This document shows positions 22,868 to 28,993 of a stretch of 35,406 nucleotides of DNA, in pieces; positions within the stretch are counted from its first letter, which is position 1; every line of letters starts with the position of its first letter. This DNA comes from Thermogemmatispora onikobensis. GTDB lineage: Bacteria; Chloroflexota; Ktedonobacteria; Ktedonobacterales; Ktedonobacteraceae. The DNA lies in assembly GCF_001748285.1 (NCBI RefSeq), contig NZ_BDGT01000046.1, forward strand, positions 1-35,406. Direction: 5' to 3'. Made by a program: the position numbers and the translations under genes. The notes under the pieces were generated by a model that made no database searches, was not told the DNA's origin, and worked only from the letters and a program-made list of their open reading frames with translations.

Positions 22868-23008
22868 TTGCTTTATCCATGAGCATTTTTCCTGACGATC
22901 CTGGCTGGGCAGGGTAGGCCGTGAGCTAACCAATCCAGACAGGCTCACGAACTGACGGCCCAGCTAACAGAAGTGGGTGACCAGGGACTCGAACCCTGAA
23001 CCTAGCGA

Positions 23009-23657
23009 GTGAAGCAGACAGCCAGCACAGCCTTACGACGAGAGTCGCCAGCCGAGGCCGAATCTGGCCCGGCCTGGGCCATGCCAGTTATCCCCTCCCG
23101 AACCGGACGTGCACCTTTCGATGCATCCGGCTCTCCAGAGAAGCGCCTCACGCACTTCTCCTGCGCCCCTTCCCCGTGTATCAGCCATTACGCTGATCGT
23201 TTGAGTACTATGGGCGCTCCGTCACCATGAGCTACAGGGGACGAGAGAGAAACCCTGTAACTTTTAGGCGATCCCGCAGTTCCCACGGCGCCCCGCTCCG
23301 TACGTAGGTCTCCCTTCATGCACAGGTGCCTTCTGGCGGGAGCATTCGCCAGCCCTCCTAATCACAGCTGACGACACCAGGGCAGGCCATCGAGGGATTC
23401 AACCCCTGGCGGGCTTGACCATATACGGCCTAGCTGCCGCTATCGGGAGCTGACAGCAACGAGTCTCGGCTCGTCACTCCATCGTCGCTGGCGGACGAGC
23501 GCGGCCATCAGCTGCTGGAGACTCCCTATACCGACTTTTCCATCATGCTGTTGTCCCCCGCAACCTTTCGGCGCGAGGTAAGATGGTGCTTTAGCCACGT
23601 CTGCTCCAGTGGCGTCGGGTCTTTCCCGACAGGGACGCTGTGAGCACAACGGCGCAC
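23009..23657 (-). mobile_element. ORF-less group II intron inserted in tRNA-Lys
   Basis: The 649-nt insertion begins GTGCGCC, matching the group II 5' consensus GUGYG, and ends in AC, matching the 3' AY rule. It contains a canonical domain V (23100-23133). TTAGGAG (23355-23361), nucleotide 297 of the intron, can pair with all seven bases of the anticodon loop CTCTTAA (one G-U), the position and behaviour of EBS1; the base before it (A) can pair with the first exon-2 base (T) as delta-delta'. TCGTT at 23458-23462 can pair with AGCGA of the anticodon stem as a tentative EBS2. No reverse-transcriptase/maturase frame exists inside, so splicing would need ribozyme activity alone or a maturase from elsewhere. 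The 3' part after domain V is 91 nt, longer than usual. Confidence 0.93.
23100..23133 (-). ncRNA. group II intron domain V
   Basis: This is a 34-nt hairpin starting GAGCCGGATGCATC, with a GAAA tetraloop, then GGTGCA, the two-base CG bulge and TCCGGTTC. The lower helix is eight pairs and the upper six, with the AGC catalytic triad in place. This is the most conserved part of group II ribozymes. Confidence 0.95.
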
Positions 23658-23758
23658 TTAAGAGTCGCTTGCTCTACCGATTGAGCTAGTCACCCAGCTT
23701 GACAGTGAAGCCGTAGCCCCGAGCTTGCTTCGGGTGCTGCGGTGGCACTGCACAGTGA

Positions 23759-28037: not shown

Positions 28038-28057
28038 CTGTGGATGAGAAAGAGCCG

Positions 28058-28993
28058 ATGAGACCCGCTGAGAGGGTGCAATCAGTGCGGAAAGGGAAGG
28101 TGGTTGTGGTCCTGGGGCCGACCGCTTCGGGCAAGAGTGCCCTTGGCATCCAGCTCGCTCAGCGCTTCAACGGTGAAATCGTCTCTGCCGATTCGCGCCA
28201 GGTTTACCGTGGTTTGGATCTTGGCACGGCCAAGGTAACTCCAGAGGAGCGGGCGCTGGTTCCTCACCACTTGCTTGATGTGGCCGATCCGGGCGAGGTT
28301 TACAGCGCAGCTCGCTTTCGGGAGGAGGCCCTGGCAGCGATTGAGGCCATCGTAAGTCGTGGGAGACTGCCTCTGCTGGTCGGTGGTTCTCCGCACTATA
28401 TTCAGCTGGTAGTAGACAACGTGCAGGTCCCCCAGGTGCCTCCCGACATGGAGCTGCGCCGGCAGCTTGAGCAGCGTCCACTTGCAGAATTGGTCGCTGA
28501 GCTGGAGAGACGTGATCCGAGGGCCGCGGCCCATATCGACCGTCGCAATCCGCGACGAGTGATTCGCGCCCTGGAGGTCTGCCTTCTGACCGGCAGGCCC
28601 TTCTCCGAGCAGCAGGGGGCGCCTGCTCCCCTTTACGAGAGCCTTCTCTTGGGCATTCATTGGCCGCGGGCGGAGCTGTATCGTCGCATCGATCAGCGTC
28701 TCGATGAGCGTCTGCGCCAGGGTATGGTCGATGAGGTGCGTCGCTTGCTGGCTCAGGGGATCAGTCACGAGCGTCTGGAAGCCCTGGGGTTAGAGTACCG
28801 TTTTATCAGTCGCTTATTGCGTGGCGAATATGCGAACGAGGCGGAGATGGCAGAACAGCTGAAGGGCGCGATCCATGATTTTGCTCGCCGTCAGCTGAGC
28901 TGGTTTCGCCGTGATCAGCGCATTCTCTGGCTGGAAGGTCCTGACCTGGCGCGAGCCGAGGCTGAAGTGGAGCGCTTTCTCGGGGGGTCGTAA
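28058..28993 (+). CDS. miaA: tRNA dimethylallyltransferase (MiaA)
   Basis: MiaA transfers the dimethylallyl group of DMAPP to N6 of A37 in tRNAs that read UNN codons. The ~311-residue protein has P-loop GPTASGKS, VSADSRQVYRGLDLGTAKV, HHLLDVADPGEVYSAA, VGGSPHYIQLV, RRVIRALEVCLLTGRPFSEQQ, and the C-terminal FARRQLSWFRRD. The family's GGTGLY-like stretch reads GGSPHYIQ and is slightly altered. I prefer the ATG at 28058; a GTG at 28040, two bases after the kinase stop, is possible, and neither has a strong ribosome site. Co-transcribed with the kinase by position. A long hairpin follows at 29055-29099. Confidence 0.93.
   Translation: MRPAERVQSVRKGKVVVVLGPTASGKSALGIQLAQRFNGEIVSADSRQVYRGLDLGTAKVTPEERALVPHHLLDVADPGEVYSAARFREEALAAIEAIVSRGRLPLLVGGSPHYIQLVVDNVQVPQVPPDMELRRQLEQRPLAELVAELERRDPRAAAHIDRRNPRRVIRALEVCLLTGRPFSEQQGAPAPLYESLLLGIHWPRAELYRRIDQRLDERLRQGMVDEVRRLLAQGISHERLEALGLEYRFISRLLRGEYANEAEMAEQLKGAIHDFARRQLSWFRRDQRILWLEGPDLARAEAEVERFLGGS

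Follow-up and report, generated by a model that had tools for sequence, protein, structure and literature searches.

A probable group II intron in a bacterial tRNA-Lys(CUU) gene of Thermogemmatispora, with sister introns in tRNA-Trp and putative tRNA-Ile2 genes

Introduction

The tRNA genes of chloroplasts frequently hold group II introns (PMC8393795), which in plants mostly lack an open reading frame (ORF) and are vertically inherited (PMC4424553); splicing of the plastid group IIA introns is thought to require MatK as well as nuclear factors (PMC13172542). The introns of bacterial tRNA genes have been described as group I, such as those of cyanobacterial tRNA-Leu(UAA) and Azoarcus tRNA-Ile (PMC4033280, PMC3984707), and the interrupted tRNAs of Thiomargarita and Beggiatoa were termed putative group I (PMC4853749). 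Most bacterial group II introns are found outside housekeeping genes, with exceptions (PMC4424553). It is thought that a step in which selfish group II introns became obligatory and host-dependent preceded spliceosomal splicing.

The preliminary description of the locus studied here had considered a group II intron in a tRNA gene to be rare or undescribed in bacteria, and no report of one was indeed found in the open-access literature searched, supplements not covered. Two review sentences are ambiguous in this regard. One, with reference to Vogel and Hess 2001, has group I and group II introns in bacterial pre-tRNA at position 37/38, although its own table row for bacteria lists group I (PMC4033280), and the cited work is reportedly a chloroplast study; the other notes that group I and group II introns are present in Bacteria (PMC4390854). 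A prokaryote-wide survey of group II introns (PMC8919778) contained no bacterial tRNA case in the sections bearing on it, and a paper on circularly permuted group II introns (PMC8637638) did not mention tRNA. What appears to be new here is the presence of group II introns in bacterial tRNA genes; the arrangement itself is already familiar from chloroplasts.

Like the chloroplast introns of trnK/matK, trnV and others, those of Thermogemmatispora are group II introns located in tRNA genes, and they are ORF-less, as are most of the plant ones; however, their hosts are free-living bacteria, the insertion site is 38/39, and neither a MatK-like protein nor any other maturase could be detected in the genus. 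They share with the bacterial tRNA group I introns the (here presumed) self-splicing ribozyme type and the residence in bacterial tRNA genes, but the ribozyme is group II. Lastly, bacterial group IIA introns with an LtrA-type protein (Ll.LtrB; ML lineage) are resembled by the ORF-bearing relatives, which encode RVT_1 and Intron_maturas2 domains; IIA and ML are the names that we take to apply to the tRNA-sited introns. Unlike the Ll.LtrB type, the target is a tRNA anticodon loop, the genus introns have neither an ORF nor the branch A, and some relatives carry a tRNA.

Results and discussion

Anatomy of the split tRNA-Lys(CUU) gene

The window, i.e., the whole stretch of DNA that was analysed, comprises 35,406 nucleotides of Thermogemmatispora onikobensis. 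An ORF-less group II intron of 649 nt interrupts a tRNA-Lys(CUU) gene on its minus strand, directly behind nucleotide 38, and the anatomy shown by the analysis is as follows.

23658 to 23695, minus strand: 5' exon, nucleotides 1-38 of tRNA-Lys(CUU) (38 nt), ending with the complete anticodon loop CUCUUAA
23658 to 23664, minus strand: IBS1, which is the anticodon loop and the final 7 nt of the 5' exon
23009 to 23657, minus strand: ORF-less group II intron, 649 nt, GTGCG...AC
23528 to 23657, minus strand: 5' part of domain I (aligned 130 nt), with helices that show compensatory changes over 23 introns
23362, minus strand: A, a possible pairing partner of the U that opens the 3' exon (delta-delta' contact as in IIA)
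23355 to 23361, minus strand: EBS1 (UUAGGAG), forming six Watson-Crick pairs and one G-U with the anticodon loop
23203 to 23223, minus strand: domain III 5' strand, where GCGCCC could pair with GGGCGC
23100 to 23135, minus strand: domain V
23009 to 23099, minus strand: domain VI, with G rather than the branch A at position -7
22974 to 23008, minus strand: 3' exon (35 nt), consisting of the 3' anticodon strand, T arm, acceptor and discriminator A

In its default mode, ARAGORN detected no tRNA in the window; in intron mode, it called a tRNA-Lys(ctt) and placed an intron of 649 nt at its nucleotide 39. The only Rfam family to reach its gathering score in the window was RF00029, with a match at 23135-23009 (50.3 bits, gathering 40, E 3.7e-07) that covers domain V and the ends of domain VI; no group I intron family did so. 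Both intron ends, GTGCG (5') and AC (3'), satisfy the GUGYG / AY rule.

The preliminary description had claimed two tRNA halves 649 nt apart at 22974-23695, an insert that starts with GTGCG and ends with AC, and a canonical domain V; all three held, with the gene now assigned to the minus strand and with the refinement that domain VI is non-canonical. Its claim that excision leaves a 73-nt tRNA-Lys(CUU) held for the sequence (38 + 35 nt), whereas splicing itself is inferred in the absence of RNA data. The insert that it had placed in the anticodon loop is, more precisely, at 38/39, the loop/stem junction behind the last loop base. Its central claim of a group II intron in a bacterial tRNA gene is supported, the host being a Ktedonobacterium. 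Elsewhere in the window, an ORF at 28040-28993 (plus strand) resembles, by eye, MiaA, a tRNA anticodon-loop modification enzyme.

Sister introns and their conservation in the genus

Three RF00029 matches were obtained in the T. onikobensis genome (150 of 213 first-look candidates scored), all of them in tRNA genes split at 38/39; apart from Lys, the identical site is interrupted in a tRNA-Trp(CCA) gene and in a CAU tRNA gene. The latter is likely tRNA-Ile2, as inferred by elimination from sequence alone: the other CAU genes of this genome, assigned by eye, are two identical initiators and one elongator Met. The split CAU tRNA is one that we take to resemble E. coli ileX, and the lysidine synthetase TilS scored over cut-off in all six Thermogemmatispora genomes.

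Conservation of the arrangement is shown by the same six genomes, each of which had exactly three RF00029 matches (150 candidates scored per genome), and all 18 matches were in split tRNAs (six each of Lys, Trp and Ile2). The preliminary description had proposed an Rfam check, met by the score given above, and a search for the same split gene in related Ktedonobacteria, which found it in every one of the six genus genomes examined; the split Trp and Ile2 genes, their presence throughout these genomes, the lack of a detected reverse transcriptase (RT) and the wider tRNA-sited set go beyond what it contained. The exons were identical in 6/6 genomes for Lys and Ile2 and in 5/6 for Trp, while introns of one type diverge by up to 19%. 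All 18 introns finish with AC and 17 begin with GTGCG, the exception being the Trp intron of T. onikobensis itself, which begins with GCGCG (L002:2101-2115, minus strand). In the tree, the Lys, Trp and Ile2 introns of the genus each form one supported clade, and the Ile2 introns join a Lys(UUU) intron from another genus; deeper joins are uncertain owing to long branches.

The decoding need was assessed in a Thermogemmatispora genome assembled as one contig of 5,607,959 bases (G039), in which the same split genes are present. Trp, Lys(CUU) and Ile2 are all missing from its 46 intact tRNAs, its three intact CAT genes being, as read by eye, two identical initiators and one elongator. The codons UGG and AUA occur 44 times and 4 times, respectively, in six long ORFs of the window judged by eye to be genes. 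Since no intact Trp or Ile2 gene was found in this complete genome, decoding of UGG and AUA appears to depend on splicing. The preliminary description had argued that splicing is obligatory if the tRNA is used; this argument is strong for Trp and Ile2 but weak for Lys(CUU), because an intact tRNA-Lys(UUU) gene is present and could read AAG.

Two other candidates were rejected. A fourth split tRNA, Gly(TCC), had been suspected from a fragment on contig C6, but G039 has intact Gly(TCC) and Pro(TGG) genes; the fragment is thus a separate piece from the 3' part of a tRNA, with Gly(TCC) and Pro(TGG) probably missing from the draft. Such a 3' fragment of tRNA-Gly(UCC), without a D arm, occurs in two genomes (L076:869-930; L113, around G039:C1:2934889-2934943), and the minus strand close by looks, by eye, like the C-terminal end of an integrase, which makes an element attachment site conceivable. 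At a tRNA-like match at C64:19171 (35.7 bits), ARAGORN called no tRNA.

Co-variation of EBS1 with the anticodon loop and of domain I

The set used for EBS1, position -7 and the tree consisted of 29 introns: 18 from the genus, five from the family, and those of L118, L121, L126, L132, L160 and L161; L124, where no 3' part was found, and L115, of 78 nt, were left out. In 28 of the 29, covering seven different loops, an EBS1 at the homologous place, sought by script at intron positions 120-480, forms a 7-nt pairing with the anticodon loop, with Watson-Crick pairs throughout in 20 and a single G-U in eight; in the remaining one, L023, six pairs were seen by eye. In L035, L036, L038, L126 and L161, EBS1 was chosen among several matches by its place. 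The Lys EBS1 includes a G-U, and since 11% of shuffled Lys introns also contain a match over 7 nt with no more than one G-U, this match is weak on its own. Nonetheless, the six Ile2 and six Trp introns each match their own loop with a perfect 7-mer, and no intron among the 18 of the genus does so for the loop of another type; with G-U allowed, Ile2 introns gave six matches to the Lys loop and Lys introns three to the Ile2 loop. The strength of the EBS1 evidence thus rests on co-variation with the loops, which is shown, and not on single matches.

In 21 of the 29 introns, the base preceding EBS1 could form a pair with the base that opens the 3' exon, as in subgroup IIA (Ll.LtrB), and this delta-delta' pair is A-U in the Lys intron of the window. 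It is absent from all six Trp introns, where an A precedes EBS1 and the first 3'-exon base is also A; it was undetermined for L160 and fits by eye only for L023.

A model of domain I, not a full six-domain model, was derived from the first 130 nt of 23 ORF-less introns. Its 24 pairs were paired in 98.2% of cells and 14 of them changed on both sides; cells with such two-sided changes numbered 101, where shuffles averaged 31.4 and slid partners gave no more than 16. Covariation by further pair types was reached in 43 of 500 shuffles. It is to be noted that the shuffles ignore relatedness, and that the model has an advantage over its slid versions, having been derived from the same alignment. The preliminary description had held that the lack of a conserved group II fold, together with an absence of spliced tRNA from RNA data, would refute it; domain V and the co-variation of EBS1 and domain I instead support the fold.

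Probable loss of mobility and the possible splicing pathway

None of the six genus genomes had a match to RVT_1, Intron_maturas2 (PF01348) or GIIM. The claim that no RT is detected, which is shown, is carried by the RVT_1 result, because PF01348 was also silent in all 14 control genomes and GIIM scores this type of protein poorly. In domain VI, position -7 is G in all 18 genus introns and A in 10 of the 11 others, the exception being L160 with C. The Trp introns have an A at -8 (6/6); the Lys and Ile2 introns have no A at either position (12/12). Given the G in place of the branch A and the lack of any detected RT or maturase in the genus, the introns are probably immobile and would be vertically inherited, an inference that we consider likely.

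Without the branch A, efficient splicing is harder to argue for. First-step hydrolysis has been reported for organellar introns without the usual branch nucleotide, chloroplast trnV being the first (PMC4513849), and, in the absence of RNA data, we lean slightly towards this pathway. The alternative, which does not exclude the main explanation, is that the introns splice by branching into a lariat, with the G at -7 as branch point or, for the Trp introns, the A at -8. In its favor are the A at -8 of every Trp intron and the plant organelle introns with odd domain VI that sometimes still make lariats (PMC4513849); against it are the Lys and Ile2 introns devoid of A at both positions and the organellar precedent for hydrolysis. 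Branching is the less favored of the two and, on balance, less likely than not.

tRNA-sited relatives outside Thermogemmatispora

Across the order, RF00029 was matched in at least 26 of 47 genomes (stricter filters), all within Ktedonobacteraceae, the family of the window. ARAGORN was applied to 39 RF00029 loci, of which the 15 from the genus were all split tRNAs and the 24 others, representing at most a few per genome, contained five (L007, L013, L014, L017, L023). Most group II introns of the family are therefore not shown to sit in tRNAs. Long-intron calls with odd anticodon positions at L024 and L032 were not counted. At L008 and L029, an intact tRNA-Val was seen by ARAGORN, and domain V lies immediately upstream of this tRNA-Val(CAC) (L029:1073-1640; L008:1357-1595, minus strand); L029 also has a second domain V followed by a tRNA-Val 3' half, perhaps another tRNA-sited intron arrangement.

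A pattern search of 29 family genomes returned 23 places, against two for the reversed control pattern: 17 in the genus, three at known tRNAs (L136, L137, L147), and L138-L140, where ARAGORN found no tRNA. A scan of 84,980 species returned 22 loci, 14 in five Thermogemmatispora assemblies and eight elsewhere, six of the eight with a group II match nearby, one (Burkholderia) with none found, and one a 78-base stub. The pattern fixes several bases, so that the loci found may not reflect the full spread. Duplicates were dropped by coordinates and sequence (L116=L023=L137; L134=L014=L147; L136=L132, identical over the 600 nt tested), as were repeat Thermogemmatispora loci from both pattern scans before counting.

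Relatives inserted at the identical tRNA site are present in other Ktedonobacteria and in Proteobacteria. The ORF-less members in Ktedonobacteraceae interrupt Ile2, Arg(CCU) and Lys(UUU) genes. Two extra bases separate the anticodon loop from the intron start in the Ile2 gene of G029 (AA before CTGCG; L007:1112-1122, minus strand) and in the Lys(UUU) gene of G028 (AT before GTGCG; L013:727-737, minus strand). Members with an RT/maturase were found in Ile2 genes of Pseudomonas fragi and Psychrobacter, in Arg(CCU) of Dictyobacter vulcani, and, on two Pseudomonas plasmids, in Leu(UAA) (L160) and Leu(UAG) (L161). RVT_1 and Intron_maturas2 were over cut-off in all five ORF-bearing relatives tested (L121, L126, L132, L160, L161), and an AI2M-like HNH in three of them; with the NCBIfam group II RT model, three tested proteins scored 263-279 bits, below the curated cut-off of 300. 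The nearest solved structure to the Dictyobacter protein was LtrA (318.5 bits over 593/620 aa). MatK_N (cut-off 31.4) matched L132 at 42.1 bits and, below cut-off, L121 at 30.5 and L126 at 26.9; it matched neither L160, L161 nor any of five comparison proteins, and the genus introns have no MatK-like protein. These matches may offer a lead toward a chloroplast link, but they are not a phylogeny. The intron of L118, from a metagenome-assembled genome (MAG) labelled Acidobacteria, clusters with the Ktedonobacteria introns, for which reason the MAG may have been mis-binned.

Spare tRNAs carried by relatives

Five relatives (L121, L124, L132, L160, L161) carry an intact spare tRNA with the anticodon of the host tRNA. 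Intron domain III is its location in P. fragi, Dictyobacter, Burkholderia sp. Bp8963 and, as placed by eye because the script match there was not domain III, the Leu(UAA) plasmid; the Leu(UAG) plasmid has it between the protein gene and domain V. The spacing of the two domain III motifs is 31 nt in all 24 ORF-less introns, and 163, 194 and 130 nt in P. fragi, Dictyobacter and Burkholderia, respectively. The loop that houses the spare tRNA in certain relatives is the same as the domain III loop of the Lys intron; this loop is short in all 18 genus introns, inside which ARAGORN called no intact tRNA. Spare and host tRNAs are identical in 52/76 aligned columns in Dictyobacter and 55/76 in P. fragi.

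The host gene of the Leu(UAA) plasmid (L160), spliced at the chosen junction, gave no tRNA that ARAGORN regarded as complete, and neither domain V nor a 3' tRNA half was found in Burkholderia (L124). Such decay would fit a spare tRNA having taken over, although this remains tentative. No spare tRNA was present in the Psychrobacter intron, and the other CAT tRNAs of that genome were one initiator and one elongator; this rests on 150 scored candidates out of 189 and covers at least 38 of the 41 tRNAs over cut-off, the remainder being 84-88 nt long.

Proposed explanation and its rivals

The explanation that we consider very likely for the whole is that tRNA-Lys(CUU) is interrupted after nucleotide 38 by a domesticated, IIA-like group II intron, splicing being inferred without RNA data. 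In the inferred pathway, the split gene would be transcribed as a single precursor; the intron would fold such that EBS1 pairs with the whole anticodon loop and one base with the first base of the 3' exon; and domain V would catalyse both steps, the first by hydrolysis or branching, with or without a host protein, so that exon ligation restores the anticodon arm of an ordinary tRNA. Splicing of the sister introns is probably essential, an inference made because no other gene for Trp or Ile2 was found in the complete genome. By inference, too, these introns probably descend from mobile group II introns that had an LtrA-like protein and whose targets were tRNA anticodon loops.

It could be argued that the split genes are dead relics and that UGG, AUA and AAG are decoded by other tRNAs. 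The intact tRNA-Lys(UUU) could indeed read AAG, and in some relatives the host gene looks dead beside an intact spare tRNA (L160, L124). Nevertheless, no further Trp or Ile2 gene was found in G039, both UGG and AUA are used in the window ORFs taken for genes, the exons remain nearly invariant where the introns diverge, and the genus introns, with their short domain III loops, hold no intact tRNA; the relic view is thus very unlikely. Excision of the insert by a protein tRNA-splicing endonuclease of the archaeal type has in its favor that the insert adjoins the canonical archaeal/eukaryotic tRNA intron site, 37/38 (PMC4033280), but domain V, the co-variation of EBS1-IBS1 and domain I, and the GUGCG start are group II features, and on the strength of these features alone we give this alternative very little credence. 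An artefact of assembly or binning, which the preliminary description had named as a possible refutation, might be raised since the genome of the window is a draft of 112 contigs; however, the same junctions recur in all six genus genomes, one of them a one-contig assembly, which all but rules it out.

If the preferred explanation of a domesticated group II intron is accepted, the bacterium is apparently unable to make its sole tRNA-Trp and tRNA-Ile2 without group II splicing, with no RT detected, which parallels chloroplasts and makes it a bacterial system in which to study how selfish group II introns turn obligatory and host-dependent. A bolder reading, no more than a possibility, is that a bacterial lineage of group IIA retroelements is specialised for tRNA anticodon loops, and that the host survives either by splicing or by a spare tRNA of the same anticodon, carried in domain III or next to the RT gene, the interrupted gene then being free to decay; three members would have been domesticated in the Lys, Trp and Ile2 genes of Thermogemmatispora. 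As EBS1 reads the whole anticodon loop, few base changes could shift such an element to another tRNA. If true, the relatives with spare tRNAs would represent one more strategy by which a mobile element can persist in a gene that the host needs, and these elements are perhaps more novel than the split tRNAs themselves.

Related proteins in Pseudomonadota, phages and plasmids

When 398 Pseudomonadota genomes were compared with the P. fragi protein, two matches at E<=1e-100 were obtained, Psychrobacter itself and G283, and no tRNA was seen at the G283 locus. The viral contigs gave no pattern matches; six phage records had a related protein, at 36.3% identity or less, and one of these served only as a comparison protein. 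Plasmid records with a related protein numbered 598, and tRNA context was examined in the best four only: L160 and L161 are in tRNAs, L159 is not (ARAGORN), and L162 looks nested. In this last locus, on a plasmid of Microvirga lotononidis (L162:4557-4720), an RT gene and a CAU tRNA are followed by an interrupted domain V that runs into the apparent start of another intron, and nested introns are one possible interpretation. In the P. silesiensis plasmid stretch of L161, ARAGORN called nine tRNA genes, one of which is the spare tRNA inside the group II intron.
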